From Bacteroidota bacterium (GTDB taxonomy: Bacteria; Bacteroidota; Ignavibacteria; Ignavibacteriales; Ignavibacteriaceae): DNA of 41,100 nt. The notes below the pieces were generated by a model. That model saw only the letters and a list, made by a program, of their open reading frames with translations. It ran no database searches and was not told where the DNA came from. Shown here in pieces: positions 1-15,252 of this stretch. The stretch lies in NCBI GenBank assembly GCA_023475265.1, contig JAMCWE010000247.1, forward strand, positions 1 through 41,100, given 5' to 3'. Position 1 is the first letter of the stretch. Every line of letters begins with the position of its first letter. The translations under genes were made by a program, and so were the position numbers.

Positions 1-1
1 G

Positions 2-121
2 CTTGCTGCTCAAGGTGGTTTAAGATATTGGGTTTCACCCACGGTTGCCATAACTGGAAGAATTGGTTTTGGTACGTTGAGTTACTCAGGATTGGATTTT
101 GGCGTAGACTTTAAATTTTAA
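2..121 (+). CDS. C-terminal end of an outer-membrane beta-barrel protein (partial)
   Basis: Only the last 39 codons are in the window; the gene starts further left. The translated end alternates hydrophobic and polar residues (GRIGFGTLSYSGLDFGVDF) and finishes with Phe before TAA at 119-121. A C-terminal aromatic residue on the last strand is the usual signal for outer-membrane barrel assembly, so an OMP barrel is inferred. The family cannot be named from this fragment. A strong terminator follows at once, so the gene ends its own transcription unit. Confidence 0.6.
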   Translation, partial: LAAQGGLRYWVSPTVAITGRIGFGTLSYSGLDFGVDFKF

Positions 122-5820: not shown

Positions 5821-6726
5821 ATGAAAAAAACTAGCTCAACCCGTTGTTCGAAATTATGCTTTAAACCGTTGAAACGGTTTTGTTTTCATGATTACACCAT
5901 TAACACCTCGATTAATCGAGGTGTTAATGGTAAAGCTACATTTATTATTAACTGTTTTAACAGTTTCCAATTTATCTCATTTAGTTTCGAACAATGGGTT
6001 AGCTCAATATTTTTTATTATTATTTTTTCGTTCTGCCTCAGCACAAAGGTCCTATCTCAATCAAGAGCAAAAGCCCAAGAAAATGTTAAAGCAATTACAG
6101 ACCTGATGAAAACATGTGTAAATCACGACTGGATGCTGTACGATATACTGTTTAACGGAAAGCCATTTATGAATTATAATGTTCTTTTCAATGAAAATGT
6201 TTCTAAGAAAATAGATACTTCTGTTCTTGACAAAAGAGATCAGTACTTCAAAGGAGAATTTGGATTGGATCCCAGGTCAGAGTTATCAAAAAAACTGATT
6301 GATCCGCTAGATAAAGAGTTTATAAGGATGTCATCTGAAAACCCTGAGCCAAACGATAGTATGAACGCAATATCGAAGAAGGAAAGGGAAATAAGCGTTG
6401 TGTATGTCTACGTTTTCATCAATAAGAAAAAAATAGAAGGCAGACCGTTCACGGGTGAAAAAATTCCCGGCGTCTCACTGGCTACTATGTTAAACGGTGC
6501 ATATAGAGATAGCTGCAACTGGGACAGCTATTTTCTTGCTTTCGGGAATTGGAAAAGCTCTGTTGGTCGCTCAGATAGTGAGATTCATAAATTTAGATTC
6601 AAACATAATGCAAACTCCCATGATATTGAAAATTTGGTTGTTGTATTAACCGGGGTCAAGTCAAGAGTGGACGAACTGTTAACGAAAATTAATTGGCAGC
6701 AATTAAACAAACTAATCTCCAACTAA
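5821..6726 (+). CDS. Secreted paralogue of the next gene, with an in-frame insertion in its signal peptide
   Basis: The 301-residue frame starts at ATG 5821, ten bases after the previous stop. The C-terminal part (NWDSYFLAFGNWK, VVVLTGVKSRVDELL) is clearly homologous to the next gene (NWISYFLAFGNWK, IVIVMTGAPDRMKEL), so the two are tandem paralogues of unknown function. The N-terminus is odd: residues 7-62 are encoded by a 168-bp insertion (160-bp palindromic element plus an 8-bp duplication). Removing it restores a perfect signal peptide beginning MKKTSSIFFIIIFSF and ending VLSQ. The insertion is a multiple of three and free of stops, so the frame survives. The hydrophobic core now begins about 60 residues in, and export may be impaired. 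No in-frame ATG, GTG or TTG lies between the insertion and the core. Confidence 0.65.
   Translation: MKKTSSTRCSKLCFKPLKRFCFHDYTINTSINRGVNGKATFIINCFNSFQFISFSFEQWVSSIFFIIIFSFCLSTKVLSQSRAKAQENVKAITDLMKTCVNHDWMLYDILFNGKPFMNYNVLFNENVSKKIDTSVLDKRDQYFKGEFGLDPRSELSKKLIDPLDKEFIRMSSENPEPNDSMNAISKKEREISVVYVYVFINKKKIEGRPFTGEKIPGVSLATMLNGAYRDSCNWDSYFLAFGNWKSSVGRSDSEIHKFRFKHNANSHDIENLVVVLTGVKSRVDELLTKINWQQLNKLISN
5840..5999. mobile_element. Non-autonomous palindromic insertion element (MITE-like)
   Basis: The ends are near-perfect inverted repeats: CCCGTTGTTCGAAATTA at 5840-5856, and TAGTTTCGAACAATGGG at 5982-5998, with 15 of 17 bases matching in inverted orientation. TAGCTCAA is directly repeated at 5832-5839 and 6000-6007, as expected for a target-site duplication (7 or 8 bp; one base is ambiguous). 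Inside are a hairpin at 5863-5880 (AAACCGTT/AACGGTTT), a 36-bp perfect palindrome at 5896-5931 near the centre, and a hairpin at 5950-5965 (AACTGTT/AACAGTT). The whole unit reads as one imperfect inverted duplication. No transposase is encoded, so it needs one supplied in trans. Confidence 0.8.
5896..5931. repeat. 36-bp perfect palindrome at the centre of the insertion element
   Basis: Both halves match without error around the midpoint 5913/5914: the left half ends TCGATT and the right half begins AATCGA. It can form a cruciform in DNA or a tight hairpin in either RNA strand. It lies within the coding frame of the surrounding gene. Confidence 0.95.
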
Positions 6727-6742
6727 TTTATATTGATGAAAA

Positions 6743-7546
6743 ATGAAGAACACAATTCACATGGTAATTTTGTTATTCATTTTATCTGTTCTTTTGGGCG
6801 GCAATACTCCGGCACAATCCTTAAAGAAACCTAGTCCGGCAGAGCAAGCAATCCTCGACAAAGCTATTCCAATTATTCAAAGTGTTCTAGATAGATTCGG
6901 TGACAACGATTGGAGTTTGAATCAGGACTGGTATAACGGGGAACCGTACGTGCCGATTAGCGATGATGGGACCGGGCCAATTGGTATTGATCAAAACTTT
7001 GAGAGAGAATACCAAGTACAGGAAAATTCCAAAAGATTTAACACCATCATCATGCCGTTAAACAATAAGCTGCAAGAACTGAATTCAAAATACCAGGAAG
7101 AGTATCAGGCTATCCAAAGTAAAAGCGTTAAAGAACAGGAAGATTTTATGAGCAAATCGAACCCTACTATGGACAGCATAACAGCAATAGGTGATAAAGC
7201 AGAAGAACTAAATGAAATTGATGTCTATGCCTACGTAAACACAACATTAATTAAAGGCAAACCGGTAAACGATCCAGGTATAAATGTCCGAGGCGCATCC
7301 TTGGTAACAAAATTAAATCACGGCTATTACCAAAAAGATAATTGGATAAGCTACTTCTTAGCTTTCGGCAACTGGAAGGGTTTAAAATATAACAATGAGT
7401 TCAATTGTTATTATTACAAATTTAGGAACACGAAGACATCCAGCATTCAAAATATAGTAATTGTAATGACCGGCGCACCGGATAGGATGAAAGAACTGAT
7501 GAATAAGATAGACTGGAGTGTACTCAACAAAGCATTAACAGAATAA
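6743..7546 (+). CDS. Secreted protein, intact paralogue of the preceding gene
   Basis: The 267-residue protein starts at ATG 6743, 17 bases after the upstream stop; the ATG at 6736 opens only a three-codon frame. A signal peptide of about 25 residues ends in PAQS. The mature protein has a helical, Gln/Glu-rich centre (about residues 95-150, possible coiled coil). The C-terminal half contains IDVYAYVNTTLIKGKPV, NWISYFLAFGNWK and VIVMTGAPDRMKELMNKIDW. It matches the gene before it across this half. The family is not recognised. It shows what the disrupted paralogue looked like before the insertion: the short signal peptide is in place here. Confidence 0.65.
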   Translation: MKNTIHMVILLFILSVLLGGNTPAQSLKKPSPAEQAILDKAIPIIQSVLDRFGDNDWSLNQDWYNGEPYVPISDDGTGPIGIDQNFEREYQVQENSKRFNTIIMPLNNKLQELNSKYQEEYQAIQSKSVKEQEDFMSKSNPTMDSITAIGDKAEELNEIDVYAYVNTTLIKGKPVNDPGINVRGASLVTKLNHGYYQKDNWISYFLAFGNWKGLKYNNEFNCYYYKFRNTKTSSIQNIVIVMTGAPDRMKELMNKIDWSVLNKALTE

Positions 7547-8848: not shown

Positions 8849-9232
8849 ATGAAGTATGGATATTCAAAAACAACCAATCTTTCTTTTGAGCAGGCGATTG
8901 AAAAAATTACTGATGAACTTAAAAAGGAAGGCTTCGGTATTTTAACCGAAATAGATGTACAAGAAACGCTGAAAAAGAAATTGAACCTGGATTTTAAGAA
9001 ATATAAGATCCTTGGCGCATGCAATCCACCAATTGCACACAAAGCTTTGCAGCTTGAAGAAGAACTCGGATTACTTCTTCCATGTAATGTTATTGTCTAT
9101 GAAAAAAATGGAAAGAATGTTGTCTCTGTTTTTAATCCTATGATTATGACACAGCTTTTAGATAAAAAAGAAATGGTATCAATTGCAGAAGAAGTTAAAG
9201 CAAAGCTTTTGGCTGCGTTGGAAAGAGTTTAA
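8849..9232 (+). CDS. DUF302 domain protein
   Basis: This 127-residue soluble protein starts one base after the previous stop. Features typical of DUF302 are LSFEQAIEKITDELKKEGFGILTEIDV at the N-terminus (residues about 11-37), then YKILGACNPPIAHKAL and LPCNVIVYE. Family members are small and often sit near heme, metal or sulfur-handling genes, but no reaction is established. Its position inside a thioredoxin/rhodanese operon supports a redox or sulfur-related role. Confidence 0.85.
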   Translation: MKYGYSKTTNLSFEQAIEKITDELKKEGFGILTEIDVQETLKKKLNLDFKKYKILGACNPPIAHKALQLEEELGLLLPCNVIVYEKNGKNVVSVFNPMIMTQLLDKKEMVSIAEEVKAKLLAALERV

Positions 9233-9292
9233 CATTCTGTAATCATAAAATTTTTAATCAAATAAATAATGAATTATTAAAAAGGTAAAAAA

Positions 9293-9658
9293 ATGCCAGA
9301 AGATTTAACTAAAGAAACTTTTCTCAAAAAAGTTTTTAATTATGAAATAAACAAGGAATGGAAATTTGAAGGCGATCTTCCGTGTGTTATAGATTTTTGG
9401 GCACCATGGTGCGGCCCGTGCCGTATGGTTGCGCCAGTTATGGAAGAACTCTCTATCGAACTTGCAGGAAAAGTAAATTTCTATAAAATCAATACTGATG
9501 TTGAACAAGAATTGGGCTCTGCATTTGGGATTAGAAGTATTCCATCATTATTGTTCGTCCCGAAAGAAGGCCAACCCAAAATGGCTGTAGGTGCTTTACC
9601 TAAAGAGACTCTGAGAAAAGCAATAGAAGAAGAACTCTTAACTGTTCAAGCAAAATAA
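9293..9658 (+). CDS. trxA: Thioredoxin
   Basis: The 121-residue protein begins at ATG 9293 after AAAAAGG. It has the canonical FWAPWCGPCRM site (Cys40, Cys43), the Asp within VIDFWAP, the cis-Pro SIPSLLFV and a C-terminal helix. Length and motifs fit a classical cytosolic thioredoxin, which reduces disulfides using thioredoxin reductase. It is the last gene of the redox operon and is followed by a strong hairpin terminator. Whether it is the housekeeping or a dedicated thioredoxin is unknown. Confidence 0.9.
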   Translation: MPEDLTKETFLKKVFNYEINKEWKFEGDLPCVIDFWAPWCGPCRMVAPVMEELSIELAGKVNFYKINTDVEQELGSAFGIRSIPSLLFVPKEGQPKMAVGALPKETLRKAIEEELLTVQAK

Positions 9659-9675
9659 ATCTGCAGGAAAATTTT

Positions 9676-9708
9676 ATAGGGACAATCTTACAATTGTCCC
9701 TATTTTAT
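9676..9708. terminator. Strong, probably bidirectional terminator
   Basis: An 11-bp perfect stem (ATAGGGACAAT at 9676-9686, ATTGTCCCTAT at 9693-9703) encloses a 6-nt loop. A T-rich tract follows it and an A-rich tract precedes it. It separates the converging thioredoxin gene (plus) and membrane-protein gene (minus). Confidence 0.85.
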
Positions 9709-9715
9709 TAAAATC

Positions 9716-10147
9716 TTATGCAGTCTGTGCAACAGGGGCTTCTGCCGGCTTATAAATAAGTGCAGCTGTTATGCCGAGTATAATGGATTGAATTAATCCG
9801 TAAATAAACCACAGAAGAATAAGAGAATAAGAAAGTGGATAAACAACATATTGTGCATATGCCGCTACGAACGAGACAAAAAGCCCTATATAAATTCCAT
9901 AGCGAATACCCTCTGCAATTCCCTTATTTTCATATCCCTTAGTGAAGAAGAAAACAAAGAAGAAGGACCAGACGAAATCTACTACGTACATTACCCACAT
10001 TTTAGACATCATAGCGTCCATTTCTCTGAAAGCAGTTTTATTAGCTTCATAAGCGGACATTAACAGAACGTTGTGAATTAATAGATTGGTAAATTCGAGC
10101 AGTACAAAAACTACAACGAAAGCAATAAGGAACTTCTTTTTGTTCAT
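9716..10147 (-). CDS. Four-helix membrane protein, unknown family
   Basis: The start is ATG 10147, which follows GGAG; a TTG twelve bases upstream precedes that site. The 143-residue protein has four hydrophobic segments, a loop with FREMDAMMSKMW after the first, and a proline/alanine-rich tail. It resembles small DUF1761-like proteins only in size and topology. No catalytic residues are visible. It converges on the thioredoxin operon. Confidence 0.65.
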   Translation of the reverse strand: MNKKKFLIAFVVVFVLLEFTNLLIHNVLLMSAYEANKTAFREMDAMMSKMWVMYVVDFVWSFFFVFFFTKGYENKGIAEGIRYGIYIGLFVSFVAAYAQYVVYPLSYSLILLWFIYGLIQSIILGITAALIYKPAEAPVAQTA

Positions 10148-11041: not shown

Positions 11042-11785
11042 TTATGATCCTAAAAGTATTTTCTCTATCAAAATGTTCATGTTCTTATAATGACTACCAG
11101 GCCAATAAATTTTATCACAAAGACTACATGTATAAAATTCATTTTGATTTGTTCTTACTTTCAGCGGAAGGCGATCAATTATCTTTTCCTTTTTAATCAG
11201 TTTCAGAATTGAATTACATTCAAGGCAGCGAGAAAATGTTTTTACTTCACCTTTAAGATTAAAACGAACAATCACCTCTTCAATTTGTTTTTCGGGATTT
11301 GAGTCTCTAACAAAATAACCATGGGTTACTTTTTTGTTTTTTAATATGCCAATATCTTTTGTGAGAATTGTTCTTTTTTCTACAAACGATATTTCTATTA
11401 ATTCTTCATCGCTATAATTATTTTTATAAAGCGTATCAAAGCCAAGCATCCGCATATATTTTGCAAGTGTTCCTAGATGAACATCAAGAATAAATTTTGG
11501 ATTACGAAGCGGTTTTTCTCTTAAATGCTGAAGATTTTTTATATCTAATGACTCAAACACCGGATAGACGCTTATATCATCGCCATCATTAACAAGATAA
11601 GAAAAATCAACTGAGTTACTATTAACTAAAATTAAATCTACTTCTCCATGGGGAATGCCAAGCGATTCAATCATATCTTTAACGGAAGGTTTGCCGCTAA
11701 ATTTATGTTCAAACCGGATTTTCTTTTTTATATCAGGAAGAAAATCATTTAGCTCTTCATAAAATCTTAGATGTGCTGTTTTCAT
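11042..11785 (-). CDS. Mut7-C RNase-fold protein with N-terminal ubiquitin-like domain
   Basis: The 247-residue protein has two parts. Residues about 1-85 resemble a ThiS/MoaD-type ubiquitin fold (LRFYEELNDFL ... DDISVYPVFE). Residues about 95-240 are a Mut7-C (PIN-like) domain with FILDVHLGTLAKYMRMLGFD, SDEELIEIS and TILTKDIGIL, which supply the acidic residues. Cys pairs CLEC and CSLC near the end form a zinc-ribbon. The same two-domain layout is known in bacterial Mut7-C proteins, predicted RNases by fold; the substrate is not known. It is separated from its neighbours by about 75-130 bp of plain AT-rich DNA plus the MOSC remnant. Confidence 0.85.
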   Translation of the reverse strand: MKTAHLRFYEELNDFLPDIKKKIRFEHKFSGKPSVKDMIESLGIPHGEVDLILVNSNSVDFSYLVNDGDDISVYPVFESLDIKNLQHLREKPLRNPKFILDVHLGTLAKYMRMLGFDTLYKNNYSDEELIEISFVEKRTILTKDIGILKNKKVTHGYFVRDSNPEKQIEEVIVRFNLKGEVKTFSRCLECNSILKLIKKEKIIDRLPLKVRTNQNEFYTCSLCDKIYWPGSHYKNMNILIEKILLGS

Positions 11786-11862: not shown

Positions 11863-11896
11863 TAAAATAAAACGAGGCTCGATAATTCAAGCCCCG
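11863..11896 (-). terminator. Terminator of the duplicated secreted helical protein gene
   Basis: Read on the minus strand, a 7-bp stem (CGGGGCT with AGCCTCG, one G-U pair) leads into TTTTATTTT. It starts 21 bp after the stop at 11918. Confidence 0.7.
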
Positions 11897-11917: not shown

Positions 11918-12637
11918 TTAAAAAAGTTCTTCAAGACTTTGATACTTTGAATGAACTTTTTCTACCGCCAAATTAATATCTTTTCCTTTGGTAGTTTTTT
12001 TCAGCGAATCCAAATCTTTCGTGGCTTTTAAAAGATCTGTAGCTGCTGAATTAATTTTTTCTGCTTTTGCTTCCAATTTTTGAGAAATTTTCATTTTAGA
12101 AATTGCTTCAGCCTTCTCTACTAATTTACCGCTTACACTAAGAATCTTTTTATAATCTTTGTTTGGTAAGTAAGTGTGGTAAATTACATAAAGCTGCTGG
12201 TGAAATTCATCAACTTCTTTTGAGACTGGCCGTATAACCCGAACAAGCATTTCATATTTAGAATGTAAAACTTCAGCCGCTTTTAAAAGTGCAGCATCGT
12301 CCTTTCCTGCGGCTTTAGAATCATATCCATTTACGGATTTTTTGAATTCATCAATTCCCTTTTCCCATTTTGCTTTTTTGTCGCGAAGAATTCCTGGAAG
12401 CCTGGCAGAATATATTTTCTCTGCTAATGAATTAACTTCTCCGGCATAACTTCTAAGCGCTGCATAATCTTTCTCTGGATAAGCAGTATGCCAGATTGAA
12501 TAAATTACTTCATGAAATTGTTCGAGTTCCGGAACTTTGCTTTCGGTTTCTTTCATTTGATCTTCGTGCTGGGAAAAAATATTTTTTCCAACAAACAAAA
12601 CAATTAGCACTACTAAAAGAAATATTTTTTTGATCAT
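11918..12637 (-). CDS. Secreted helical protein with an internal duplication and repeated histidines
   Basis: The start is taken at ATG 12637, giving a signal peptide of about 22 residues ending IFSQ; an ATG 15 bases upstream is possible but less fitting. The 239-residue mature-plus-signal protein consists of two copies of a helical module. The first has EQFHEVIYSIWHTAYPEKDY and later VLHSKYEML; the second has DEFHQQLYVIYHTYLPNKDY and later VHSKYQSLEE. Each copy thus keeps three His residues, Tyr residues and a P-x-KDY turn. Such spacing in a four-helix bundle suggests metal or heme binding, by analogy to cytochrome-b562-like bundles. This is inference only. It has its own terminator and candidate promoter. 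Confidence 0.65.
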   Translation of the reverse strand: MIKKIFLLVVLIVLFVGKNIFSQHEDQMKETESKVPELEQFHEVIYSIWHTAYPEKDYAALRSYAGEVNSLAEKIYSARLPGILRDKKAKWEKGIDEFKKSVNGYDSKAAGKDDAALLKAAEVLHSKYEMLVRVIRPVSKEVDEFHQQLYVIYHTYLPNKDYKKILSVSGKLVEKAEAISKMKISQKLEAKAEKINSAATDLLKATKDLDSLKKTTKGKDINLAVEKVHSKYQSLEELF

Positions 12638-12669
12638 TGTAGTATCCCGCATTTTATTTTTTGATAAAA

Positions 12670-12732: not shown

Positions 12733-12763
12733 AAACAAAAAGAGCAGAAATCAATCTGCTCTT
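12733..12763 (-). terminator. gyrA terminator
   Basis: The 9-bp perfect stem AAGAGCAGA (12740-12748) with TCTGCTCTT (12755-12763) and a 6-nt loop is followed on the minus strand by a T-tract. It ends the dnaN-to-gyrA transcript. Confidence 0.85.
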
Positions 12764-12786: not shown

Positions 12787-15252
12787 TTACTTTTCTTCTA
12801 TGCCGTTAGAGTTGTTTTCACCCTCATCTTCCTCAGGAACAACTTTGGCGATATCAGCAATTTTGTCAGATTCATTCAAACGAATAACTCTAACGCCTTG
12901 TGTATTTCTTCCCATGACTCTGATATCTTTTACGCTTTGTCTAATTACCATTCCTCTAGAAGAAATTATTACTAACTCATCGCCATCAACAACTTCCATC
13001 ATTGCAATCATCTTGCCTACTTTTTCGTTAGTCTTAACAGTAATTACACCTTTGCCGCCGCGATGTGTAATTCTATAATCATTAATGTCAGAACGTTTGC
13101 CATAACCATTTTCCGTAACAACAAGAATATTGTCATTTCTTTTTATGACCAAAAGTCCAACAACAATATCTCCCTTGCCTAATCTGACACCACGAACTCC
13201 AGTAGCAACTCTTCCCATGTCTCTAACGTCTTTTTCGTTAAAGCGAATTGCAAAACCATTTTTTGTCCCAAGCACAATGTCGCTAGTTCCATCGGACATC
13301 TTAACCGAAATTAATCTATCACCCTTAACAATGTTTATTGCATTAATACCGCCTTTGCGAACATTGCCATAAGCAGAAAGAACTGTTTTTTTAATCGTTC
13401 CTTTTTCCGTAGCCATTATCAAATAGCTGTCATCTTTAAATTCTTTGACCGTCACAAATGCAGTTACTTCTTCGTCCTGTTCTTTCCCGATCAAATTTAA
13501 AATTGATCTTCCTCTTGTTGCTCTGCCGCCTTCAGGTATTTCAAAAACTTTAAGCCAATAAACTTTTCCTTTATCGGTAAAGAATAAAATATAATGATGA
13601 GTTGAAGCAATAAACATATGTTCAATGAAATCGTCATCTTTTGTCCCGGCTCCCGTTACGCCTTTGCCGCCGCGTCCTTGCTTTCTATAGCCGCTTACAG
13701 GAAATCTTTTAATAAATCCTTTGTGAGAAATTGTAACAACAACATCTTCTTCGGCAATAGTATCTTCAAGCGAAAACTCTTCATAATTATAGATGATTTC
13801 AGTTCTTCTTTCATCGCCGTATTTTTCTTTTATTTCAAGAAGCTCATCTTTAATGATAAGAAATCTTTTTTCTTCACTTGCTAAAATTCCTTTTAATTTT
13901 TCAATTATCTTAATTACTTCTCTATACTCATCTTCTATTTTCTTTCTTTCCAAGCCTGTCAAACGCTGCAACCTCATATCTAGAATTGCTTTTGCTTGGA
14001 TTTCACTCAACTTGAATTTTTTCATCAAGTTGTTTTTTGCGGTCTCAACATCTCTGGACTTTTTTATCGTTTCGATTACTTCATCAATATTATCTAGAGC
14101 TATTATATAACCCTCTAAAATGTGTGCGCGTCTTTCTGCAGCATCAAGATCGAATTTCGTTCTTTTAATTAGAACATCCATTCTGTGTGTTAGAAAATGC
14201 TGCATCATTTCTTTTAACGTAAGAACCTTAGGAGCACCATGAACAAGAGCCAGCATTATTACCCCAAAGGTCGTTTGCATCTGTGTATGCTTGAATAGTT
14301 GATTCAACACAACAGATGGCTGAGCATCGCGCTTTAATTCAATCACCACTCGCATTCCATCGCGATCTGATTCATCTCTAATATTTGAAATGTCATTTAT
14401 CTTACCACCGCGTACCAATTCGGCTATTTTCTCAATAAGATTTGCTTTGTTAACTTGATATGGAAGTTCGGTGATAATGATATTTTCCCTGCTGTTTTTG
14501 AGAGTCTCAACGTTTGCTTTTGCACGAACGATAATTCTTCCTCTACCGGTTGTATATGCTTCTTTAACACCTTCATAGCCGTAAATAATTCCGCCGGTTG
14601 GAAAATCCGGTGCGGTAATAAATTTCATTAACTTTTCAGAAGTCATGTCGGAATTTTTAATTAAAGCAATTAATCCATCTATAACTTCGGTTAAATTGTG
14701 TGGGGGAATGTTTGTTGCCATACCCACGGCTATTCCGCTCGATCCGTTCACAAGTAAATTGGGTAAGTATGATGGAAGAACTGTCGGCTCTTGAAGTGAA
14801 TCATCAAAGTTTGGAACAAAGTCTACAGTATTCTTATCAAGATCGCGAAGCATTTCATCTGCAATTCTAGCAAGCCGGGCTTCGGTGTAACGCATTGCAG
14901 CAGGTGAGTCGCCATCGACAGATCCAAAATTTCCTTGTCCATCAACCAGAGGATATCTAAGTGAAAACTCTTGAACCATTCGAACCATGGTATCATAAAC
15001 AGCCGTATCACCATGTGGATGATATTTACCTAAAACTTCTCCAACTATTCTTGCTGATTTTTTATAAGGCTTATTATAAGCAACGCCAAGCTCGGACATT
15101 CCATATAAAACTCTACGATGCACCGGTTTCAATCCATCTCTCACATCGGGCAAAGCGCGTGCGACAATTACCGACATCGAGTAATCGATGTAAGAGGATT
15201 TCATTTCTTCTTCTAACGAAACAGGAACTATTTTTTCAAATATTGTTGCCAT
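12787..15252 (-). CDS. gyrA: DNA gyrase subunit A
   Basis: The 821-residue length is typical. The N-terminal breakage-reunion domain has [17 protein letters not shown], the catalytic Tyr122 in [13 protein letters not shown], and [13 protein letters not shown], where position 83 is Thr and position 87 Asp in E. coli numbering. The C-terminal beta-pinwheel has the GyrA box QGRGGKG, which marks gyrase rather than topoisomerase IV, and an acidic tail [15 protein letters not shown]. With GyrB it introduces negative supercoils using ATP. It lies 35 bp after gyrB and is the last gene of the replication cluster, followed by a terminator. Confidence 0.97.

Follow-up and report, generated by a model that had tools for sequence, protein, structure and literature searches.

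A probably secreted two-module helical protein of Ignavibacteria with invariant histidines and a possible periplasmic metal-binding role

The described proteins closest in fold to the one reported here are four-helix bundles. In cytochrome b562 (PF07361) the heme presumably has two axial ligands, Met7 in helix 1 and His102 near the end of helix 4, and in cytochrome c' (PF01322) heme is attached through a CxxCH motif in helix 4. PsbQ and the PsbQ-like subunits are components of photosystem II and NDH complexes, and the Csp copper-storage proteins are four-helix bundles lined with Cys. His and Glu ligands are no less suited to Zn, Ni, Co, Fe and Mn than to Cu(II). A functional counterpart is CopM of Synechocystis, which we take to be assigned to DUF305, a term that appears in the paper on CopM. 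That paper describes a protein of the periplasm with high affinity for Cu(I) that gives resistance to copper (PMC4335983).

Here we describe a gene from a 41,100-nucleotide stretch of an Ignavibacteriaceae genome (the window), whose product, P0001, we tentatively read as a periplasmic metal binder built of two fused b562/c'-like bundles, with a metal site and not a heme site, copper as the likeliest metal and a buffering role.

The gene, its duplication and its invariant residues

The P0001 gene occupies 11918..12637 of the minus strand (239 amino acids plus stop, delimited from the open reading frame and a 29-member alignment), from an ATG at 12637 to a stop at 11918-11920, with a second in-frame ATG at 12652. 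Its neighbours are gyrA (12787-15252, minus strand, named by eye) and, at 11042-11785, another gene of the minus strand. Terminator-like stem-loops stand on both sides of it, one with a T tract 3' of the gene (11873..11896, minus strand) and one between gyrA and the gene (12740..12763, minus strand), so it is probably transcribed alone, from its own transcript; three such structures occur in the region over both strands vs. 0.5 expected. The 4.77-Mb source genome contains a single P0001 copy, with nothing further up to E 10. Elsewhere in the window (5821-7546), adjacent proteins of 301 and 267 amino acids have C-terminal halves that look alike by eye.

Residues 1-22 (12572..12637, minus strand) read by eye as a signal peptide, probably cleaved before Gln23, in keeping with the initial annotation, which had called the protein secreted; the N-terminal part is a low-confidence region of the AlphaFold2 model, and on this reading of the signal the protein would be delivered to the periplasm. 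The rest falls into two modules of about 100 residues, module A (residues 33-137, 12227..12541, minus strand) and module B (residues 138-239, 11921..12226, minus strand), each delimited by the structure model and hhalign. An AlphaFold2 prediction from 21 sequences (pLDDT 91.3, pTM 0.74) gives two four-helix bundles, as the initial annotation had supposed of a helical bundle, with helices at 36-52, 58-63/65-76, 82-110 and 114-135 in module A and at 140-156, 162-180, 186-214 and 218-237 in module B. One module modelled alone, from 42 rows, reached pLDDT 95.2 and pTM 0.87. The two motifs from which a duplication had been proposed are both present twice: F-H-x3-Y-x3-H-T-x2-P-x-K-D-Y at residues 41-58 and 145-162, and L-H-S-K-Y at 124-128 with V-H-S-K-Y at 228-232. 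The duplication itself is borne out by the family alignment, the halves of which align over 101 columns by hhalign (probability 99.6, E 1.9e-23), and by half-vs-half z-scores, which ranged from 15.9 to 20.8 over the six of the 29 proteins compared in this way.

Each copy carries three motif histidines, as had been pointed out. Module A has His42 (12512..12514) and His50 (12488..12490) in helix 1 and His125 (12263..12265) in helix 4, and module B has His146 (12200..12202) and His154 (12176..12178) in helix 1 and His229 (11951..11953) in helix 4, all on the minus strand and every one of them invariant in 29/29 aligned proteins, P0001 included, from Ignavibacteria and Aminicenantes/Acidobacteria. 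Only 27 of the 239 columns are invariant, among them these six together with Glu122, Glu129 and Arg133, and they take in six of the seven His of P0001 (chance about 8e-6). Outside the 29-row alignment, one genome carries a second copy that is without the motif His (L146, G258:C187:4530-5240).

Family spread and single-module relatives

The database searches agreed with the view that no described family carries the motif: none of the P0001 matches in Pfam or NCBIfam reached the cut-off of its model. Searched alone against Pfam, NCBIfam and PDB, P0001 gave chance-level matches only, as did the family profiles against PDB; the new module of single-module relatives (four proteins in one scan, three in another) likewise had no Pfam or NCBIfam model above cut-off. 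The PrgI needle protein was rejected (E 0.008, far below the cut-off, and 0.28 in another search), as was DUF6491, which matched one single-module protein below cut-off and over its N-terminal 59 residues only. DUF305 appeared neither among the three P0001 matches nor among the families listed for family members (25 of 102). In the open-licence literature, none of the matches listed was a paper naming such a domain in its title or the start of its abstract. P0001 represents a family of known fold, without a described model, that is probably metal-binding.

Twenty relatives sharing 41-67% identity come from records named Bacteroidetes, Ignavibacteria, Aminicenantes and, once, Acidobacteria. By profile search, matches turned up in 62 of the 294 genomes from the class and in 24 of the 395 of a phylum sample, both counts including a few genomes with single-module matches only. 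Among 12 other genomes of the same genus the gene is present in two (G001, G004), with a weak match in a third (G005) and none in nine, some of which are incomplete. The weak match (L035, G005:C56:21140-21226) stands beside gyrA and covers the last 29 residues only (59% identity, E 0.004); another residue takes the place of the last motif's His, and the stretch is likely what remains of a lost gene. In a tree of 29 proteins the Aminicenantes rows fall among Ignavibacteria rows, with three label changes, a mixture compatible with gene transfer between phyla, one origin being possible as well. Neither the double-module nor the single-module form had a match on plasmids at the limits used.

A search with one single module found 30 of 395 phylum-sample genomes, two of them through double-module genes (L106, L107), leaving 28 single-module loci. 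The singles carry a DFHxVMxxTFHPxE-like motif in helix 1 and an LHDxFH-like motif in helix 4. Their profile aligns to module A (hhalign probability 96.4, E 1e-9) and to module B (98.3, E 2.5e-14), and the single modules are homologous to both. All four of their His positions are His in 27/27 single-module rows. These rows leave out L081 (a near-copy of L080) and L101 (a broken frame) and take in L073; they still include near-copies, and the two-His pattern used to cut them dropped none. L090 and L092 were replaced by longer stretches with the same genes (L119, L121), and L134 (no target frame) and a match in G251 were left out of the counts. The fourth His of the singles corresponds to Glu129 in module A (12251..12253, minus strand; Glu in 29/29 double-module proteins) and to Gln233 in module B (Gln in 21/29). 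Many single-module proteins look secreted or lipoprotein-like by eye, some with His-rich C-terminal tails.

Fusions, gene neighbours and the candidate metal

The single module also occurs as an addition to enzymes. A secreted Fe/Mn superoxide dismutase (SOD) with a C-terminal module is found in four genomes (G508, G358, G346, G533) of three families, with Sod_Fe_N/Sod_Fe_C assigned by Pfam in the L076/L078 and L124 proteins (G508, G533) and SOD recognised by eye in L079 and L087, and a secreted DJ-1/PfpI protein carrying the module is found in G410 (L114, Pfam DJ-1_PfpI). The fusion loci listed, SOD and DJ-1/PfpI together, are L078, L079, L087, L099 and L085.

Some single modules have metal-associated neighbours. 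For example, in L117 the gene order is a small C-x-G-x-C protein, MbnP, an MbnH-type di-heme protein, the module and DUF2911, and L168 has the same set; in L114 genes that match three of the kinds seen in L117 come after the DJ-1 fusion, and an SCO-like gene was recognised by eye. L108 adjoins SCO1-SenC, and L128 adjoins DUF2231, VIT1, a CzcB-type adaptor and a CusA/CzcA pump. Pfam or NCBIfam backs MbnP, the CCP_MauG/MbnH family, SCO1-SenC, VIT1, CusA/CzcA and the CzcB-type adaptor; the MbnP and MbnH-type matches lie above the Pfam cut-offs and below those of NCBIfam, and the YHS match of L122 is below the Pfam cut-off. The small C-x-G-x-C membrane protein, for which HYC_CC_PP is presumably the label, had no Pfam or NCBIfam match. 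Beside the single-module gene in L117, a secreted protein (9138-10055) with CEICGCSGNG after its signal likewise has no Pfam or NCBIfam match, and genes like it recur in L168, L174 and L178. An earlier paper reports that there were then no data linking close MbnP homologues to copper (PMC3621798).

Using a probe set of MbnP, MbnH, DUF2911, C-x-G-x-C protein, SCO, VIT1, adaptor, CusA and YHS, at least one match was found in 8 of 28 single-module loci (L108, L114, L115, L117, L119, L121, L122 and L128, with L115 included through CusA at 35% identity only) vs. 0 of 20 control stretches. Because the first probes came from these 28 loci themselves, the count was repeated on 16 further loci of one family, and only this second count is an independent test. 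Four of the 16 were positive (L168, L174, L177, L178; L174 and L178 through the C-x-G-x-C protein only) vs. 0 of 33 controls (the 20 earlier stretches plus 13, several shorter than 16 kb), and the chance of four random positives all falling in 16 of 49 is 0.009 (1820/211876). Omitting DUF2911 and the C-x-G-x-C protein, neither of which has an established function, the counts become 6/28 and 2/16 vs. 0/33, with a chance of 0.10 (120/1176) for the second set. Most single-module loci, 20/28 and 12/16, are without any metal-associated probe match. In the second set the frame was recovered in 13 of 16 loci (none in L170, L178 and L183) by a four-His pattern, so these loci are no test of His conservation. 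The other family tried matched in 1 of 120 genomes, the query genome itself.

The double-module genes show a different picture, with copper-type neighbours in 0/31 neighbourhoods. A convergent Cation_efflux gene adjoins 9 of the 57 double-module loci examined, a point in favour of a metal role that is weakened by its confinement to family f2; with flanks of mostly 1.5 kb at these loci, some neighbours may have escaped notice. Across 20 double-module loci no conserved neighbour was found, except that gyrA and the 11042-11785 gene also occur in L002 and L003. One double-module gene (L147, G258:C162:6055-6783) has an Oxidored_q6-type subunit gene on one side and a NiFeSe_Hases (nickel-dependent hydrogenase large-subunit) gene on the other. 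As the double-module genes are without the neighbours of the singles, the function of the tandem form is carried over from the singles by homology.

Copper is the most likely metal, judged only from the context of the single-module relatives. Counting against it are the 0/31 of the double-module genes and the L146 copy without motif His. We regard as rather unlikely that the metal is instead zinc, nickel, cobalt, iron or manganese, held by a periplasmic chaperone or buffer which might, for example, feed iron or manganese to the fused SOD. The Fe/Mn SOD fusions and the VIT1 neighbour in L128 could point to iron or manganese, and the Cation_efflux genes and the hydrogenase context of L147 also favour a metal other than copper; however, the MbnP/MbnH neighbours (L114, L117, L168) and the SCO neighbours point to copper, and DJ-1 is not an Fe/Mn enzyme.

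On the copper-binding reading, every module would bind a metal in the space between its helices 1 and 4. In module A the ligands would be His50, His125 and Glu129, while His42 would lie near this site, in its second shell, or bind a second metal; in module B they would be His146, His154 and His229. In an ideal-helix estimate (4000 trial bundles in one assumed b562 register, with residue 42 at Met7 and 132 at His102, giving rough geometry), a single metal is within reach of His50, His125 and residue 129 in 34% of trial bundles and His42 and residue 129 share a metal in 68%, whilst His42 and His50 never do (Cb-Cb 12.7 A). From this geometry we infer one site per module, made by the second helix-1 His and the helix-4 His, plus Glu129 in module A. 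By binding copper in the periplasm P0001 would buffer it and limit copper-driven oxidative damage.

A broader proposal, which we hold a little more loosely, is that the module is an undescribed periplasmic metal-site domain in which a b562/c'-like bundle carries His3-Glu or His4 instead of heme, occurring singly, as a phylum-crossing tandem, or as a SOD or DJ-1 add-on that may couple copper capture to removal of reactive oxygen species. If true, a metal-handling domain would be named where the copies searched have no Pfam or NCBIfam model, a natural case of a heme-protein-like fold with a different metal site would be at hand, and several kinds of unannotated protein (secreted singles, SOD and DJ-1 fusions and the tandem form) could be tested together.

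Comparison with heme bundles and other four-helix proteins

Foldseek searches with the predicted models found nothing at or below E 0.001. The best chains were scored by VIA-align, in which Z below about 13 is common for helical bundles generally, and cytochrome c' (Z 10.7-11.8) and b562-variant chains (Z 10.7-11.1, rmsd 2.4-3.1 over 99-100 residues) share the four-helix bundle of the module. The Cytochrom_B562 Pfam model has no match in P0001 at E up to 10; with an E limit of 1 it matches 15/29 family members (best 8.9e-6) and with a limit of 0.01 it matches 5/42 single modules (best 0.001), and Cytochrom_C_2 matches 6/29 members at E up to 1 (best 2.3e-4). Because of these matches, kinship with the cytochrome b562/c' superfamily is plausible, although not proven.

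The same fold and Pfam matches would favour a b-type cytochrome, in which two of the three His per module bind heme in a b562-like bundle and the tandem acts as a di-heme electron carrier, and six b562-type alignment rows (4..103 to 1..105) would place His146 at the Met7 position; the N-terminal register varies between rows (4 to 1, or 1 to 2). We consider this reading improbable. Judged by the C-terminal ranges (103 to 105 or 106), His102 of b562 falls near E235-E236 in module B, where position 236 is E in 24, Q in 4 and S in 1 of the 29 proteins, and P0001 has no His in residues 230-239, the last ten of module B, or in 126-139, no Met in 36-52 or 140-156, and no Cys. By the ideal-helix estimate, whose settings are those for a metal ion, a centre common to His42 and His125 arises in 6.9% of trial bundles, and the four His and His-rich tails of the relatives fit metal ions better. 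Of the "metal or heme" site suggested by the initial annotation, the metal half is therefore strengthened, by the invariant His, the fourth His of the singles and the metal-associated neighbours of a minority, and heme in P0001 is disfavoured by the missing Cys, helix-4-end His and helix-1 Met.

Equally improbable is a structural or protein-interaction bundle of PsbQ type with structural His: PsbQ-like NDH subunits are the best structural matches (Z 12.8, rmsd 2.5 over 101 residues, or 13.2 in another comparison) and talin and designed bundles match too, as is common for helical bundles at such Z, but the three His per module are invariant in both copies and in the singles, and the metal-associated neighbours and SOD/DJ-1 fusions also speak against it.

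Set beside the known systems, P0001 resembles PsbQ in fold, the one feature compared. It lacks the Cys on which cytochrome c' and the Csp proteins depend, and CopM, with which no sequence relation is shown, serves as a functional model only. Unlike cytochrome b562, with which it shares the bundle, P0001 has neither a His towards the end of helix 4 nor a Met in helix 1; it is duplicated, and the modules of its family carry three to four other invariant His.
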